This document shows positions 3,404 to 23,106 of a DNA stretch of 36,366 nucleotides, in pieces. This stretch comes from Candidatus Eisenbacteria bacterium. GTDB lineage: Bacteria; Eisenbacteria; RBG-16-71-46; SZUA-252. The notes under the pieces were generated by a model. That model saw only the letters and a program-made list of their open reading frames with translations, was not told the origin of the DNA and did no database searches. Numbering within the stretch: position 1 is the stretch's first letter; each line of letters begins with the position of its first letter. The stretch spans positions 1 through 36,366 of the forward strand of contig VBOW01000066.1 in the NCBI GenBank assembly GCA_005893275.1, given 5' to 3'. The position numbers and the translations under genes are program-made.

Positions 3404-3661
3404 TTAGGTCGTGGCCTCGGCGGGCTGGAATAGTCCCGCCTTGAGCCGGTCCTTCAGTCGGTACGAGTTGCCCCGGATGTTCACTGTGATGGCGTGGTGG
3501 AGGATCCGATCGAGGATCGCCGTGGCGATCACCCGGTCGCCGAATATTTCGCCCCAGGAGCCGAAGCTTTGATTCGAGGTCAGGATCATGGGCCCCTTCT
3601 CGTATCGGCGGCTGATGAGCTGAAAGAAGAGATTGGCCCCGGTCTGGTCGATGGGGAGAAG
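3404..3661 (-). pseudogene. istB: IstB-like transposition helper ATPase, C-terminal remnant
   Basis: The last 85 codons of an IstB-type AAA+ protein ending in TAA at 3404. Recognisable family phrases are [15 protein letters not shown], then [29 protein letters not shown] and [14 protein letters not shown]. These correspond to the sensor and C-terminal helices after Walker B. The Walker A and B half, about two thirds of a usual ~250-residue IstB, is absent, and no start codon exists, since the frame runs directly into the tRNA-Leu. It cannot encode a working helper and is a pseudogene of an IS21-family element. The reading frame within the remnant is intact, so truncation was by one break rather than slow decay. 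Confidence 0.88.
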
Positions 3662-3667
3662 TGTAAG

Positions 3668-3751
3668 TGCCGGAGGGGGGACTTGAACCCCCACCCACTT
3701 GCGTGGACCGGATTTTGAGTCCGGCGCGTCTGCCAGTTCCACCACTCCGGC
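3668..3751 (-). tRNA. tRNA-Leu (anticodon CAA)
   Basis: An 84-base tRNA on the minus strand. The acceptor stem GCCGGAG pairs with CTCCGGC, with discriminator A at 3668. The D-arm region is GTGGTGGAACTGGCAGAC, the anticodon arm CCGGA-CTCAAAA-TCCGG gives anticodon CAA (decodes UUG), the long class-II variable arm is CCAC-GCAA-GTGG, and the T arm is GGGGG-TTCAAGT-CCCCC. CCA is not encoded (CTT follows), unlike the partial copy at 2354-2411. An IS21 remnant begins six bases past its 3' end. Confidence 0.93.
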
Positions 3752-3839
3752 GCCCAATCTATTGCAATTCTGAAAGCTATCAGAGCGAACGACGCCCGGT
3801 CAACGCGACCCCGCCGTCGGGAGCGCTCAATCTTTCTAA

Positions 3840-3869
3840 TTGACAAATGTACAACAAGTTATGTATAAT
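3840..3869 (+). promoter_or_regulatory. Strong sigma-70-type promoter for the structured ncRNA
   Basis: A perfect TTGACA (3840-3845), an 18-base spacer and a perfect TATAAT (3864-3869) lie in an AT-rich patch within an otherwise GC-rich window. No protein gene lies downstream on this strand, which points to a highly expressed RNA. Expected start about 3876-3877. Confidence 0.8.
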
Positions 3870-3876
3870 ACTTCGC

Positions 3877-4104
3877 GTGATTTGAGACCTGCGAAGTCAT
3901 ACGGAACTTTTTACCAATCGCGGCGTCTAAAGGGTACGGCAAACAGGGTTGTGAAGTTCCCTGTGATTCGCGTTACCTGAGGGCTTGACCCGGCGTTCGC
4001 CGGTGGGTTGCCCAAGGCCTTAACGCAAGCTTTCAAGGCACGGTTTCCGCGGGGAACTTCCGCAAATCGGGTGGCGGGGCGAAAGCTCCGCCACCATAAT
4101 TTTT
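3877..4104 (+). ncRNA. Standalone structured RNA, probable 6S-like RNA
   Basis: The interval lies between a perfect promoter and a strong terminator, with no open frame supported on the + strand. A long imperfect hairpin can be drawn. The closing stem pairs TTGTGAAGTTCCC (3949-3961) with GGGAACTTC-C-GCAA (4052-4064, one bulge). An open region follows, with GATTC on the 5' side and a longer 3' side carrying a mini-hairpin GCTT-TCA-AGGC. The upper stem is GCGTTA/TAACGC, then GGGC/GCCC, and the apical hairpin contains CCGG-CGTTCG-CCGG. The upper stem carries CCTGAG opposite GGCCTTAA, similar to the CCTGAG and GCCTTAA parts of E. coli 6S RNA. A central bubble within a long rod is the 6S (ssrS) plan, in which RNA polymerase-sigma70 is sequestered. 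The first ~70 bases, with hairpin ACTTCGC/GCGAAGT at 3870-3897, may be a processed leader. The 6S assignment is by structure and motif only; another abundant ncRNA class is possible. Confidence 0.6.
4070..4104 (+). terminator. Rho-independent terminator of the ncRNA
   Basis: An 11-base-pair stem (GGTGGCGGGGC / GCTCCGCCACC, one G-T pair) closes on a GAAA tetraloop (4081-4084) and is followed by ATAATTTTT at 4096-4104. The T tract lies only on the + strand side, so it terminates rightward transcription. Confidence 0.9.
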
Positions 4105-4166
4105 GCCCGGCCCAGGCTCCGGCCCCGCCCGCTTCGGCCCAACCCGCCCCCGACCCGCGGGCCCGC

Positions 4167-5930
4167 CTACACCCCCTTGACCGCCACCAGGGTCAAATCA
4201 TCGTCCGGCTCCCCGCCGCTGAAGGCCCCCACCGTCTCGCGGACCCCCCGCACGATTTCGGCCGCGGATCGCTCTTTTCTCGAACGGATCACGTCCTTCA
4301 AACGGTCATCCCCGAAGAGCTCCTGGACGTCGTTCATGGATTCGGTGATTCCGTCCGTGTAGAGGGCGAGGATGTCGCCGCGTCCGATCTCGGCCTGCTT
4401 CTCCTTGAAGGTCGCGTTCTCGAGCGTCCCCAACAGGGGACCGGTTGAGTCCAGACTTTCGAACGAGTCCGTCGCCGCCCGGTACAGGAGCCCGGGGTTA
4501 TGCCCCGCGTTCACGTACGTGAACCGGCGCGCGTTGATGTCGAGCACGCCATAGATCGCGGTCACGAAACGCTCCACCTCGACGCTTTCCCAGAGGAGCT
4601 TGTTCACCTTGGAGAAGACCGTGCGGATCGCGTAGTTGTTCCGGACCTCCGCGATGAGCGACGCGCGGAAGGCCGCCATGATGAGCGCCGCCGGAATCCC
4701 CTTCCCCGAAACATCGGCGACCACGATTCCCAGATGTCCCTCGGTGATCCGCACGTAGTCGTAGTAATCCCCGCCCACCAAACCCGACGAATAATTGGCG
4801 CCCGCGATGTCGAAGTTCGCCACCTTGGGGTCGCGCTCGGGAAGAAAGGTCCGCTGGATCCTCTGACCGATCGACAGCTCTTCCTCGAGCCTCCGGGTCT
4901 CCAATACCTCCGCGTGGAGCCGGGTGCGCTCGATCGCCACCGCCGCTTGGCTCGCGAAGGTCATCAGGAGCTCCAGGTCTTCTGGCTCATAGGCGTCCGG
5001 CTCGTCCGATTCCAGGTTGAACGCGCCGATCACCTCCGAGCCCACCCGAAGCGGCGCGACCATCTCGGAGCGGGTCTGGGCCCTCGCGTTCACGTACCGT
5101 TCGTCGCGCAGAACGTCCGGCACGATCACGGAACGCCCGGTCTTCGCGACCCACCCGATGAGCCCTCGGCCCACCTTGAGCCGCACCGCGTCCTCGCGAT
5201 TCGGATCGTAGCCGCGGATCGCCTGCTGGTTGATCCACTGCGTCTTCTTGTCCACGAGATAGATTCCAGCCGCGTCGTAGCGAACGACCTGGAAGACCAG
5301 ATCCAGGATTTGCTCCAGGAGCTGCCCCGTGTCGAGGCTGACCGAAATCTTGGTGCCGAGCTCGAGGAGGAGATGGTTCTGCACCTTCTCGCGCGTCGCC
5401 TCGGCGTAGATGCGCGAGTTCCCCACCGCGATCGCAAGCTGGATCGAAAGCTCGCGCAGGAAGGAGAGGTCCTCCTCGGGAGGGCGCGTCGAGTCGAGCT
5501 TCGTGAGGACGACGACGCCGAGCGGTTCGCCGGCGCGCCTCAGCGGAAGCGTCAGGACACCCTGGATCATCGAACGCTGCCGGCCGCCCCATTCCTCCGG
5601 AATGTACTGCGCCTCGGACAGAGTCGGGTAGAAGGCCGGAATCTCCTCCGCGCAGGCCTGACCCGCGACCCCCTGTCCCACGCTGAGCCGCGGCCGGCGG
5701 CCCAGGACCGGGGTGTTGCAGAGGGTCCACGGATAGAGGACCTCCGACCTCGGATCGAGAACCCAGAGCGAGAGCTCCGAGAACCCGCTCGCGCGCAACA
5801 GAAGATCGCGCGCCTTGCGCGCCAGCTCGTCCCGCTTCAGGAGCGCCAGCTCGCGCGAAGCGCGAACGAGAAACTGGAGCCGCTCTTCCTGGCTCGTGGC
5901 GCGCGCGGCGAGTGTGATGGGCTCGTTCAT
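4167..5930 (-). CDS. GAF-GAF-SpoIIE (RsbU-like) protein serine phosphatase
   Basis: A 587-residue soluble protein from ATG at 5930. Two GAF sensor domains (about residues 20-170 and 195-345; the second carries VGRGLIGWVAKTG and SEMVAPLRVG) precede a short coiled linker (EEELSIGQRIQRTFLP) and a PP2C-type SpoIIE phosphatase domain (about 370-585). The metal-binding signature residues are present: GGDYYDY near 386, DVSGKG near 405, YTDGITE near 525 and DDDLTLV near 575. RsbU-type phosphatases act on anti-anti-sigma factors in partner-switching control. No RsbW/RsbV-like genes lie in the window, so its target is unknown. Its start overlaps the stop of the upstream gene (ATGA), implying translational coupling with the HExxH protein. 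Transcription probably begins at the promoter near 7200. Confidence 0.9.
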   Translation of the reverse strand: MNEPITLAARATSQEERLQFLVRASRELALLKRDELARKARDLLLRASGFSELSLWVLDPRSEVLYPWTLCNTPVLGRRPRLSVGQGVAGQACAEEIPAFYPTLSEAQYIPEEWGGRQRSMIQGVLTLPLRRAGEPLGVVVLTKLDSTRPPEEDLSFLRELSIQLAIAVGNSRIYAEATREKVQNHLLLELGTKISVSLDTGQLLEQILDLVFQVVRYDAAGIYLVDKKTQWINQQAIRGYDPNREDAVRLKVGRGLIGWVAKTGRSVIVPDVLRDERYVNARAQTRSEMVAPLRVGSEVIGAFNLESDEPDAYEPEDLELLMTFASQAAVAIERTRLHAEVLETRRLEEELSIGQRIQRTFLPERDPKVANFDIAGANYSSGLVGGDYYDYVRITEGHLGIVVADVSGKGIPAALIMAAFRASLIAEVRNNYAIRTVFSKVNKLLWESVEVERFVTAIYGVLDINARRFTYVNAGHNPGLLYRAATDSFESLDSTGPLLGTLENATFKEKQAEIGRGDILALYTDGITESMNDVQELFGDDRLKDVIRSRKERSAAEIVRGVRETVGAFSGGEPDDDLTLVAVKGV

Positions 5931-6616
5931 CGGCCGCGGCGCTTCGCTCGCCTGCCCGTGTCGTGGGGGCTCTGGATCTCGGCGAGAAAAGCCCGAAGCT
6001 CTTTGGGACCCAAGTGGTCCGCGGTCCAGAGGGCGTTGAAGATGCGCTCTCCGCGGCGGGTGAAGCGTGGATAGTGGCTGAGGGTCCTGACGAAAACGCG
6101 CCGCCGCTCGCCGCGCGTCATCGCGGGCAGCCCACGGCGGTTGAGGCGGCCGTCGATCCACACGTTCCAGAGCTCGTTCAGGGCCTCACGGTCCTCTTCC
6201 GGGTGCGCCGCCAGGTCGACGCCGGCCTCGTGATCGTCGCGCAGGTGATAGAGCTCGTGGAGGCACGCCTCGGCGAAGCACTTGCGCGAGAACTGGCGGG
6301 GCTCGACCGGAGGCACCCCCGCCCGCCGCCCCCAGGTCCGCGTCCACGCGCGCCGGCGCGCGGGGGTGACGAAGTTGCCGAGCGCGAAGGAGAGCCGCAC
6401 CGCGCGATGATCGTGCGTGTTCCATTCGATGTAGGCGTGGTCGTCCCGATTCCGCAGGTCCACGTGCACGTGGACATCGCGCACCACATCGGAAAGGCCC
6501 AGCTCGTGAATCGACTCGCGCAGCACCCCCTCGGCCGCCTCCCGCAGGGGAAAATCGGGCGGGTGCCAACGGACGCGAAGCCCCTGCCCCCCGTGCGCGG
6601 CATGGAGCGGTCGCAT
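5927..6616 (-). CDS. Uncharacterised HExxH metallopeptidase-like protein
   Basis: A 229-residue protein from ATG at 6616, nine bases after the stop of the upstream gene. It has no signal peptide or membrane segment. The central motif HELYHLRDDH (about residues 119-128) has the zincin HExxH pattern plus an additional His, followed by acidic residues and ALNELWNVWIDGRLNRRG, a W-rich helix resembling the second half of minimal zincin folds (SprT or DUF-type). The N-terminal half has an HVHVDLRNRDDHAYI strand-rich segment. I do not recognise the exact family; peptidase activity is an inference from the motif. The C-terminus is very basic (RRAKRRGR). It overlaps the start of the SpoIIE phosphatase gene by four bases, so the two may work together, for example as a stress sensor and its switch. 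Confidence 0.75.
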   Translation of the reverse strand: MRPLHAAHGGQGLRVRWHPPDFPLREAAEGVLRESIHELGLSDVVRDVHVHVDLRNRDDHAYIEWNTHDHRAVRLSFALGNFVTPARRRAWTRTWGRRAGVPPVEPRQFSRKCFAEACLHELYHLRDDHEAGVDLAAHPEEDREALNELWNVWIDGRLNRRGLPAMTRGERRRVFVRTLSHYPRFTRRGERIFNALWTADHLGPKELRAFLAEIQSPHDTGRRAKRRGR

Positions 6617-20111: not shown

Positions 20112-21275
20112 TCAGGGTAGCTTCGTTTCGGCGCGCGCCATCACGACAGGCTGGTGCGCGCTCAGATCTACCTGCCGCTGCTTCAGAGCGGGCAGATAGG
20201 CGGGATCGATGAAATGATAGACGAGGAAAGCCGCGGCCCTCCTGGCCTTCGGCGGGATATCGCACCATTCGACGGCTGTGCCCTCGGGCGGGATTTCGAC
20301 CTGGCGGACGACCTTCGCCGCGAGCCACTTTGGTACCGGGGTGGCGCCTTTCGCGTCGGCGTATTGGATGCCGTAGGTCTGCACGGATGCCGACGACAGC
20401 GATTCCCCCGCCGCGCCGAAGAATGTGACCGAAAGCGCGATCTCCCGCATGCCCCCGCCGCCTCCCGGCAGCGCGTGCCCCGCGCGGCGGTTCGCGACGG
20501 AGAGCTTCAGGCGCCCTCCCTCGACCGCGGCGCCAAGCACCACGACCGAGTCGAGAGCGCCAACCCCGTGAGCGCCGCGGAAGCTGTGGGCGTGGACCTT
20601 ACCCCGGCTCCTCTTCGAAATGTTGGGAGCGGCCTCCCCGGCGTGGAGAGGCATGTGGCAATCCTGGCACTGCTTGCCCCCGGCGGCCTTGGAGGCCTTC
20701 CACCTGCTGTAGGTTGCTTCGATCGGGACGCCGGTCGCGGCCGCCGCGTGCTCGTGGCAGGCGGCGCAGAACTCCCCCTTCGTGTGGATCTCGCTATAGA
20801 CGAAGCCATGGGCGCTCCCGGGATCGGAATCGCTGTACGGGCCGCGCATGAGGAGCGGATTGGCCGCGTCGAAGGTGTAGGAAGCCGGACTGGGGGAGGG
20901 ATCGACCGCGCTCACGTTGTGGCAGAAGTTGCACGTCACGCCTTCCTGGCTCACCGGCGACTCGAATTTGTAATCCGCCGTCACGGCGGCCGCCGGCGCG
21001 TGGCAGGCGACGCAGGAGGCGAGGACCTTCTCGCCGAGCTCGGCCTTGGCGTCGGTGAGGAAGACCTGAAAGACTGGGTTCTTCCAGGATTTCCCCATCG
21101 CGGAAGTCTCCCATTCGCGGCGAATCTGCCCGTGGCACGCTCCGCAGAAGCGCGCCGGGCGGAGGTCCTGGGCCACGGCGTGACCGCAGCACGCGAGCAC
21201 CCCTAGGGTCGCGAGCGTCCCAACGATGCAGCCCCTGGACGATCCCCCGCGGCTCGCGGAGGGGAGCCGGATCAC
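20112..21275 (-). CDS. Periplasmic pentaheme c-type cytochrome
   Basis: A 387-residue protein from GTG 21275 (GTGA overlap with the preceding gene). The signal peptide (residues ~15-35, [19 protein letters not shown]) is followed by five CxxCH heme-binding motifs: C44GACH, C88VACH, C115NFCH, C170AACH and C203QDCH. Spacing and [18 protein letters not shown] neighbours resemble multiheme cytochromes of the c554/NrfB/perchlorate-chlorite type, in which extra histidines ([10 protein letters not shown]) give distal ligands. The C-terminal ~150 residues carry no heme and form a beta-rich domain. It lacks a membrane anchor beyond the signal. Partners and electron acceptor are not visible here; no nitrite or nitrate reductase gene is near. 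Confidence 0.92.
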
Positions 21276-22393
21276 GACCGGCTCTCCTTGGCCGCGCCCG
21301 CGGTCGCGTCCAGGTGAGCCGCGCGGATCGCCTCGAGCAAGGCGTCCCGCCTCTTGTAGAGCCGCTTCAGCGGGCGCGCCGCGCGCTTGCCCAGAGCGTA
21401 GGCGGTCAGGATCGGAAGCGCGATCGTCGAATCGACGTACGCCGTGACCGCGTCGGGCAGCCGGTTCGGATCGAGCTTTCCCCAGCTGACCGCTTCCCCG
21501 GGGGTCGCCCCGGAGAGACCGCCGGTGTCCGCGCGGGCGTCGGTGATCTGGAGAAAATAATCATGCCCCGACTCGGCGATTCCGAGAACCTCCTGGATCT
21601 GGGGCTCCGTCTGCAGGGCGAAGTTCTTCGGAGATCCACCTCCCAGAATGAGGATGGCGCTCTTTCCGCCCGATTTCTTGGCGCCGTGGACGATCGCGGC
21701 GCTCTCGTTCACGTCGCGGAACACGTCCCATTGGATCGGCTCCCCACCCAACGCGAGGGCCGCGGCGTTCATTCCGATCGAGCTGTCGCCGGGAGAGGAG
21801 GTATAGACCGGGACATCGAGCGCGTGTGCCTGCGCGAGGAGCGAGGTCTCCTTTTGCCCGAGGGCGCGCTCCCGCTCGAGCACGTACCGGCCCGCCCGGT
21901 GGTGAAACTCCGCGGTTCCCATCGGCTTCTGAAACTCCGGGGAGCGGAGCACCTCGCGAAAGAAAGCGTCGGTCGAGAGGAGCACGTCGTAGTCGAAGAA
22001 GATGTCGAATATGCGAACGATGCCTCGATCGCGCAGCTCCACATCATCCACATTGCTCCGCCCCTGGTGCATCGAGAGGCCGATTCCAAAGTGGGTGTCG
22101 TGGTACAGATTCGCCCCGGTCGAGACCATCCAGTCCACAAACCCGTTCTTCAAGAGAGGGATCAGGCAGGATCGGCCCAGCCCGGCCGGCGTGAGCGCCC
22201 CGCTCAGCGTGAGCCCGACCGTGACGTCGGGCTCGAGCATTCGCTCGGCGAAGAGGCGGCAGCCCTCGCGCAGGCGCGCGGCATTGTAGGCAAGGAACGC
22301 GGAGTCGACCATCTGCTCGACCGTCATGCCCGATGAAACCGGGTCGGGCGCGATCTTGGGCCCCTTCCTCACTTCCGGTTTTCGTGCGCCCAT
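21272..22393 (-). CDS. Deoxyhypusine-synthase homologue (bacterial; probable homospermidine-synthase type)
   Basis: A 373-residue protein from ATG at 22393 (TGATG overlap with the SDR gene). Clear DHS-family phrases: [44 protein letters not shown] and the Lys-bearing [10 protein letters not shown] near residue 305. In eukaryotic DHS the lysine of the matching VSWGK motif forms an imine with the aminobutyl group of spermidine; it is retained here. Bacteria lack eIF5A, and some bacterial homologues (speY) transfer the aminobutyl group to putrescine, making homospermidine. That is my preferred role, but substrate specificity cannot be read from the sequence. Neighbours (SDR, cytochrome, DegT) do not clarify it, and no spermidine biosynthesis gene is in the window. 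Confidence 0.9.
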
Positions 22394-23106
22394 CAGGCCC
22401 TCCCATAGATGGGTACGAGCGCGCCGGAGGTCCATGCGGCCTCGTGCGACGCCAAATACGCGAGGAGCGCGGCGACCGCGTCCGGCGGCACCCATGCCGA
22501 GAAATCGGCGTCGGGCATCGCCGCGCGATTGGGGGGAGTGTCGATCACGCTCGGGAGAATCGCGTTGGCGGTGACGCCTTCCTTCTTCAGCTCCTTCGCC
22601 AGGGTCTGGACGAGCGCGTGGAGTCCCAGCTTCGCCGCCGCATACGCTGCGGCGCCGGGAGTGCACTCGACCGCGCCTCGCGAGGAGACGAAGAGGAGCC
22701 GCCCGTGAGCCGTCTGCTTCACGTGCGGGATCACGTGTTTCGCGGCCCAGAACGCCGAGATCAGGTTGAGCTCGATCATGCCGCGCACGGTGCTCTCAGC
22801 CACGGACTCGAGACGCTCGCCGCCACGATAGCCTCCCGCCAGGTGGATGAGGACGCGCAGGTCGCCGAGCTGCCGGGCGGCCGCGTGGACCGACTCCCGC
22901 ACCGACTCCTCCTGGGTCACGTCGGACTGTAGACCCAGGAGGGAGCCGGTTCGCGCGGACGACTCGTGCTCCCGCTTCAGCTCCTCCCATTCTTTCTCGG
23001 CGCGGTAGGTCACCGCGACGCGGTACCCATCCCTGAGAAACCTACCGGTCACGGCGCGCCCCAGACCACCCGTGCCGCCGGTCACAAAGGCAGACCCTGC
23101 CGTCAT
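22393..23106 (-). CDS. Short-chain dehydrogenase/reductase (SDR)
   Basis: A 237-residue classical SDR from ATG at 23106. The cofactor-binding TGGTGGLG lies at residues 9-16, with LAGG near 89, the [11 protein letters not shown] helix, the catalytic Ser in VSSRGAV near 142 and YAAAK near 155-159 (Tyr-x3-Lys), then an LPSVIDTP exit loop. Arg in VTYRAEKEW after strand 2 suggests NADP(H) preference, by family rule. The substrate is unknown; the shape is that of an FabG-like oxidoreductase. It lies 19 bases after the BatE gene and overlaps the DHS-like gene, so the pair is probably co-translated. Confidence 0.9.

Follow-up and report, generated by a model that had tools for sequence, protein, structure and literature searches.

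6S RNA (SsrS, Rfam family RF00013) is the best-known RNA-based global regulator of RNA polymerase, and its closing stem mimics the DNA duplex downstream of an open promoter. The apical arm of 6S RNA carries a -35-like region and the 3' bubble a -10-like region, and B. subtilis 6S-1 truncated to two short arms still completes its cycle in vitro (PMC8876501). In the 6S literature cited here the shortest named 6S RNA is ~160 nt, and genomes with multiple copies carry two paralogs, such as 6S-1 and 6S-2 of B. subtilis (PMC8876501) or the 6S2 paralog of L. pneumophila (PMC3048289). Ms1 of Actinobacteria is related to 6S and acts on RNA polymerase without being a 6S RNA by definition; it measures ~300 nt and has two extra short end hairpins (PMC9130861). 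The sigmaE-dependent small RNA genes rybB and micA are transcribed from promoters with the -35 element GGAACTTTT and the -10 element GTCAAA (PMC1804206).

Here we compare these systems with a structured RNA, designated RNA-A, that is encoded between a promoter (P1) and a terminator in a 36,366-nt stretch of DNA (the window) from a 2.88-Mb genome of the uncultured phylum Candidatus Eisenbacteria. The preliminary description of this locus had taken it for a 6S-like RNA.

A stand-alone gene for a small structured RNA

The elements delimiting the gene are listed below.

3840 to 3869, + strand: P1, sigma70-type promoter TTGACA-18-TATAAT, 12/12 consensus; predicted transcript start ~3876
3903 to 3930, + strand: P2, putative ECF/RpoE-type promoter, with -35 GGAACTTTT at 3903-3911 and -10 GTCTAA at 3925-3930
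3950 to 4066, + strand: RNA-A core, a short 6S-like RNA; covariance-model matches, with the match of model R3 (see below) at 3955-4059
4070 to 4105, + strand: intrinsic terminator, an 11-bp GAAA-capped hairpin (4070-4095) and a T-rich tail

A perfect TTGACA/TATAAT pair, a structured interval and a GAAA-capped terminator of 11 bp, together forming an RNA gene without a protein frame, had all been claimed from the bare sequence, and all of them stood up to analysis. P1 was conserved in 7/7 complete homologs as TTGAC[A/T], a spacer of 18 nt and TATA[A/C]T or CATAAT. Two promoter-like sites were observed in 4 kb where 0.5 were expected, and the site other than P1 reached only 9/12. The terminator hairpin is followed by ATAATTTTTG, and 5/11 pairs of its helix showed two-sided changes; terminator-like matches taken alone were not above chance frequency (3 vs 3.0 in shuffles). 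The predicted transcripts are ~227 nt from P1 and ~166 nt from P2. The fold of the former beat 200/200 shuffles (z = -3.7), and the shorter transcript, taken from 3937, gave z = -3.9. Since the alignment of the homologs contains indels of 1-2 nt, no protein frame accounts for the interval. Rfam at gathering cut-offs gave no match within it, the sole match in the window being the divergent tRNA-Leu at 3668-3751.

DNA homologs of RNA-A were detected by BLAST in 8/9 genomes of its Eisenbacteria family and in 0/30 other relatives searched. A covariance model matched the same proportion of family genomes (8/9) and additionally G009 from a second family, a distant homolog that compensatory changes in the apical stem bear out. 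Among the eight aligned sequences, 12 pairs were changed on both sides compared with 4.6 in shuffles, and the predicted pairs were filled in 95.6% of the alignment cells compared with 33-52% in slid controls. The homologs, the covariation and the promoter conservation thus place RNA-A well beyond chance, and the locus was confirmed as a real, stand-alone, non-coding gene for a small structured RNA.

The neighbourhood is constant. A GAF-SpoIIE phosphatase gene (4167-6161) has its 3' end convergent with RNA-A in 7/7 relatives, and a divergent tRNA-Leu(CAA) lies on the other flank in 6/8 homologs, the contigs of the remaining two being too short. A mobile element with inverted-repeat ends was disfavoured by the single gene per genome, the constant neighbours, the invariant U.G wobble of the closing stem and the covariation. 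A match of model R1 in G031 was an artefact caused by the terminator, and a search of public genomes with the apical-hairpin pattern returned the family loci and unrelated chance matches. Genome G002 (L010, JACQPZ010000016) carries the public label Latescibacterota, yet is classified in the genus of the window. Elsewhere in the window, a fragment of an IS21-type istB gene (3404-3662, - strand), a remnant of an insertion at tRNA-Leu, ends beside the 3' end of this tRNA gene, and a gene of the deoxyhypusine synthase family (PF01916, E 3.5e-66), here in a bacterium, was found at 21272-22666 on the - strand.

A putative second promoter of the ECF type

The preliminary description had overlooked P2, which is best read as an RpoE/ECF-type promoter, a consensus match supported by conservation, with a predicted transcript start at ~3936-3938. 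In 7/7 complete homologs it has the form GGAACTTTT-N13-GTCTAA with a fixed length of 28 nt and a variable spacer sequence, and GGAACTT-N16-TCTAA is fixed in the same proportion (7/7). The pattern GGAACTT-N15-17-TCTAA has one exact occurrence in the 2.88-Mb genome, namely P2. No P2-type site was seen upstream of the about ten ECF-like genes of the genome, and a whole-genome scan for the pattern with three mismatches performed no better than the reversed-pattern control. No ECF regulon emerged from the pattern, the exact motif being confined to RNA-A and the 3-mismatch scan being noise, and no ECF gene autoregulated from a P2-like promoter was found. GGAACUU in the 3' arm of the closing stem was also considered as an imitation of the ECF -35 element and rejected, because its orientation relative to the loop misfits a promoter mimic.

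The block might instead be an RNA element that pairs with AAGUUCC of the closing stem as a switch. A switch would draw on the complementarity of GGAACUU to the 5' arm, a pairing that G-U pairs would permit in G001 and G009 too. The fixed 28-nt length around a variable spacer and a GUCUAA that has no partner argue against a switch, and so does G001, where a change in the arm is compensated by the 3' arm, whereas the 5' block GGAACTTTT...GTCTAA is unchanged. We consider a switch quite improbable.

Structure of RNA-A

The eight aligned sequences fold into one structure consisting of a closing stem, a small internal loop, the P3 helix, a three-way junction with P4 and P5, and the terminator. The parts within the 117-nt core are as follows.

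3953 to 3966, + strand: 5' arm of the closing stem, GAAGUUCCCUGUGA; pairs with 4046-4060; 97% of cells paired
4046 to 4060, + strand: 3' arm of the closing stem, UCCGCGGGGAACUUC; partner of 3953-3966
3967 to 3973, + strand: 5' side of the internal loop with its inner pairs, UUCGCGU; conserved; faces ACGGUU at 4040-4045
3978 to 3987, + strand: 5' side of the P3 helix; pairs with ~4026-4038
3990 to 4003, + strand: P4 hairpin CCGGC-GUUC-GCCGG, arm of the three-way junction; paired bases invariant in 8 family members
4005 to 4020, + strand: P5 hairpin GGGUU-loop-GGCCU, second junction arm (weak); 94.9% of cells paired

The closing stem carries compensatory changes and is of the 6S-type CCCUG/CGGGG with an invariant U.G wobble. 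In the P3 helix 5/12 pairs were changed on both sides and 92.6% of the cells were paired. Many pairs of P5 are G-U, and this hairpin is not clearly retained in G009. The rod-like fold with an open central bubble that had been proposed gave way to a long stem that leads through a small internal loop into a three-way junction. That a bubble opens at all is doubtful, since the covarying P3 helix occupies its place and the predicted opening is limited to a small loop, part of the internal loop at 3967-3973 having an unpaired probability >0.7.

RNA-A is distinct from the canonical 6S RNA

A search with the Rfam 6S covariance model, the check proposed together with the 6S assignment, gave no RF00013 match on 3820-4120 even at E<=10, and RNA-A was likewise unmatched at the gathering cut-off of 46.4 bits. 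Instead, the organism's canonical 6S RNA was located on another contig (G000:C45:16546-16727) with 80.6 bits. Canonical 6S genes were also present in 11/12 nearest relatives and in 38/47 phylum genomes, with scores exceeding the cut-off in 36. CCTGAG and GGCCTTAA, which had been read as 6S blocks, do occur in the sequence and were found in 0/8 homologs.

Several of the features that define 6S were looked for in RNA-A and were absent, and it is therefore not filed as a 6S RNA. The P3 helix sits at the position of the wide central bubble (~12 + 13 nt in the Rfam consensus), and the 6S rod of ~160-200 nt with its apical -35-like arm is replaced by a core of 117 nt with a three-way junction; RNA-A further differs in having no Rfam score and in its putative ECF promoter. 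A strong promoter and terminator, the structured interval and the 6S-type end helix would suit a canonical 6S RNA. The failure of RF00013 to match, the true 6S on contig C45 and the spread of canonical 6S through the phylum make it almost certain that RNA-A is something else. Both RNAs are encoded by a separate non-coding gene and share a CCCUG/CGGGG end helix, an internal loop and inner pairs of the CGUG/CACG type. The claimed resemblance to 6S thus failed for the cited blocks and at the level of Rfam, and survived for the closing stem and internal loop, as matched through intermediate RNAs and the model R3.

Sister RNAs with 6S-type end helices

The covariance model of RNA-A without the terminator (R2) picked up additional short RNAs throughout the class, here named RNA-B and RNA-C. 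Their copies in the genome of the window are given below.

L132:731-848 (G000:C13:141330-141447), - strand: RNA-B; further copies at L133-L136
L185 (G000:C19:50303-50406), - strand: RNA-C, own genome; match of model R3

RNA-B is a highly conserved RNA of 118 nt with a 6S-type end helix, present in five genomes of the family including that of the window. RNA-C measures ~100-104 nt and combines an invariant GAGCUGAUCCCC / GGGCUGAUCCCC core with a 6S-type end helix. It stays below the Rfam cut-off and, as judged by R3 matches, occurs in 33/47 genomes including that of the window, mostly once per genome. RNA-A, RNA-B, RNA-C and the canonical 6S RNA bring the RNAs with a 6S-type end helix in the genome of the window to four.

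The three short RNAs of this genome have different promoters each. The ECF site was found at RNA-A only (7/7), and TTGACA lies 36-37 nt upstream of RNA-B in 5/5 cases. The sigma54 -24/-12 motif GG[CT]A[CT]-N5-TTGC was detected upstream of RNA-C at 23/30 loci compared with 1/488 control windows, and rpoN was present in 45/47 genomes. No sigma54 motif was seen upstream of RNA-A, RNA-B or canonical 6S, and none of the ECF, sigma54 and TTGACA motifs was seen upstream of nine canonical 6S genes. The sigma54, ECF and sigma70 assignments are consensus matches backed by conservation.

Some further observations concern RNA-C and its relatives. RNA-C with its conserved putative sigma54 promoter is possibly more remarkable than RNA-A itself. 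In family f8 (L110, L112, L113, L120) RNA-C is followed, at ~+1 to +70 downstream, by a conserved hairpin-like element GGGCCCTG...TGGCCTCCGTGCTCGACTC[AG]CGCGACCG...CAGGGCCC. Genome G010 contains a tandem pair of short 6S-like RNAs (L111:1247-1344 and L111:1501-1605) and, on a different contig, a weak second canonical 6S. Where the RNA-C match is missing, in genomes of families f7, f9 and f4, PF04552 scores tend to be lower (more divergent sigma54), a pattern that may reflect co-loss of RNA-C and sigma54 or a limit of the model reach.

Relationship of the closing stem to 6S

The 5' arm of RNA-A, GAAGUUCCCUGUGA, agrees with the Rfam 6S consensus cuccCUgcgguGUUCG, and the closing stems are alike when cuccCUgcgguGUUCGu / ACGGCaccgcGGggag of the Rfam 6S consensus is compared with UUCCCUGUGAUUCGCGU / CACGGUUUCCGCGGGGAAC of RNA-A. 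RNA-A, RNA-B and RNA-C all start with a UUCCCUG-type and end with a CGGGGAA-type sequence, and the ends of canonical 6S, CCCUGC...GGCGGGGC, are of the same type. RF00013 matched RNA-C in four genomes with 26-34 bits, the best match having 34.1 bits and E 5.8e-4 against all Rfam, where covariance-model E-values, here and below, are rough. In three of these four genomes R2 also matched RNA-C with 16-22 bits (best 22.2 bits, E 1.6e-4). RNA-C, which is matched by both models, bridges RNA-A and canonical 6S.

A third model, R3, was built from RNA-C alone (alignment A4) and included no RNA-A or canonical 6S. It matched 8/8 RNA-A loci supplied with 16-24 bits, and over 317 kb the RNA-A of the window came top with 22.4 bits, followed by another stretch with 16.2. 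At E<0.1 it also matched 11/31 canonical 6S loci, ten of them in full length and mostly with exact ends, the best match reaching 30.7 bits (E 1.6e-5). Pair-preserving shuffles of the end helices gave p=0.0002 for A vs B and p=0.005 for A vs C (within the trio A, B and C the range was p = 0.0002 to 0.013), and p=0.018 for A vs 6S and p=0.006 for C vs 6S; the shared information lies mostly within ~20 nt per side and is palindromic.

Neither RNA-B nor the f8 RNAs had a match in Rfam at E<=1, RF00013 included, and among six RNA-C loci, that of the own genome included, RF00013 gave one weak match only (E 0.25). A match of R2 to the own canonical 6S with 23.0 bits under default filters was not reproduced in the unfiltered run, and most other canonical 6S loci were unmatched by R2. 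Taken together, the matches of R2, R3 and RF00013 and the shuffles indicate that the link of RNA-A to 6S is moderate directly and firmer through the intermediates, so that the 6S-type closing stem of RNA-A has moderate statistical support by way of these RNAs. This link is confined to the closing stem and the internal loop, and the apical part differs.

Possible function of RNA-A

The analysis shows the gene, the conservation of both promoters, the fold, the likeness of the closing stem to 6S and the presence of 6S, RNA-B and RNA-C alongside RNA-A; we infer how RNA-A may be expressed, whether it binds RNA polymerase, in which direction it acts and which ECF factor switches it on. It has about an even chance of belonging to a group of short 6S-like RNAs that act on RNA polymerase and differ in the sigma factor controlling them. 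RNA-A would be transcribed steadily from the sigma70 promoter P1 (~227 nt), and an RpoE-like ECF sigma factor would additionally switch it on via P2 (~166 nt). Its closing stem and internal loop appear to be of the 6S type, and its apical arm is reduced to a three-way junction, so that the -35-like part of 6S would be missing. Because the downstream-duplex part of 6S, the closing stem, is retained, the analogy with 6S suggests that RNA-A may occupy the main channel of RNA polymerase. In doing so it would lower sigma70-dependent transcription, at a low and steady level normally and more strongly during an ECF stress response. RNA-A would accordingly be 6S-like in its end helix and probably also in its binding target.

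A different possibility is that RNA-A is an independent structured small RNA belonging to an ECF (RpoE-like) regulon. It would then work through base pairing or titrate a protein other than polymerase, and its end-helix likeness to 6S would be due to chance or convergence. RybB and MicA have outer-membrane protein mRNAs as their targets. Like RNA-A, they are encoded by stand-alone small RNA genes with the -35 element GGAACTTTT and a -10 element of the form GTCTAA/GTCAAA, and this RpoE-type motif, conserved in 7/7 homologs, is the same as that of rybB and micA (PMC1804206). The lack of an Rfam 6S match and the apical half of RNA-A, which is unlike 6S, also fit such an origin. On the other hand, RNA-A is longer and far more structured than RybB and MicA and has an additional conserved sigma70 promoter; strongly folded and with few exposed conserved single strands, it is unlike typical seed-pairing small RNAs. 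Furthermore, R3 recovers the closing-stem similarity over a clean background, and this similarity recurs in RNA-B and RNA-C, which leaves an independent small RNA unlikely, if still to be reckoned with.

RNA-A could also descend from 6S and have as its target not Esigma70 but core RNA polymerase or an alternative holoenzyme, comparable to Ms1, to which it is likened as a 6S-related RNA that acts on RNA polymerase. A closing stem of the 6S type combined with the lack of a clear 12+13-nt bubble, the canonical 6S already present in the genome and the putative alternative-sigma promoters of the short-RNA class are in agreement with this, and without an open bubble there would be no pRNA release step. 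Against it stand the ~300 nt of Ms1 and its different layout (PMC9130861); compared with this description, the predicted RNA-A transcripts of ~166 or 227 nt are of another design, and we regard an Ms1-like RNA as improbable. A leader, riboswitch or small-protein transcript would have nothing in its favour beyond the presence of a promoter. The transcript is closed by a terminator, the next gene is convergent in 7/7 relatives, Rfam contains no riboswitch matching here and the 1-2 nt indels break any frame, making such a role hardly credible.

Significance for Eisenbacteria

Eisenbacteria may, as a tentative reading that falls somewhat short of an even chance, divide labour between a canonical 6S RNA and up to three short (~100-120 nt) 6S-like RNAs, each transcribed with a different sigma factor. 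RNA-A would then respond to sigma70 and an ECF factor, RNA-B to a sigma70-type -35 element and RNA-C to sigma54. Each alternative sigma factor driving its own polymerase-directed RNA would thereby shift the polymerase pool in its own favour.

The phylum-wide set comprises RNAs of ~100-120 nt that have the 6S end helix, went undetected at Rfam cut-offs and are preceded by putative sigma54, ECF and sigma70-type promoters, and it is compact enough for in vitro work. If this reading is true, these RNAs would form a direct link from alternative sigma factors to control of the polymerase by RNA, and would reveal to what size a 6S-type RNA can shrink.
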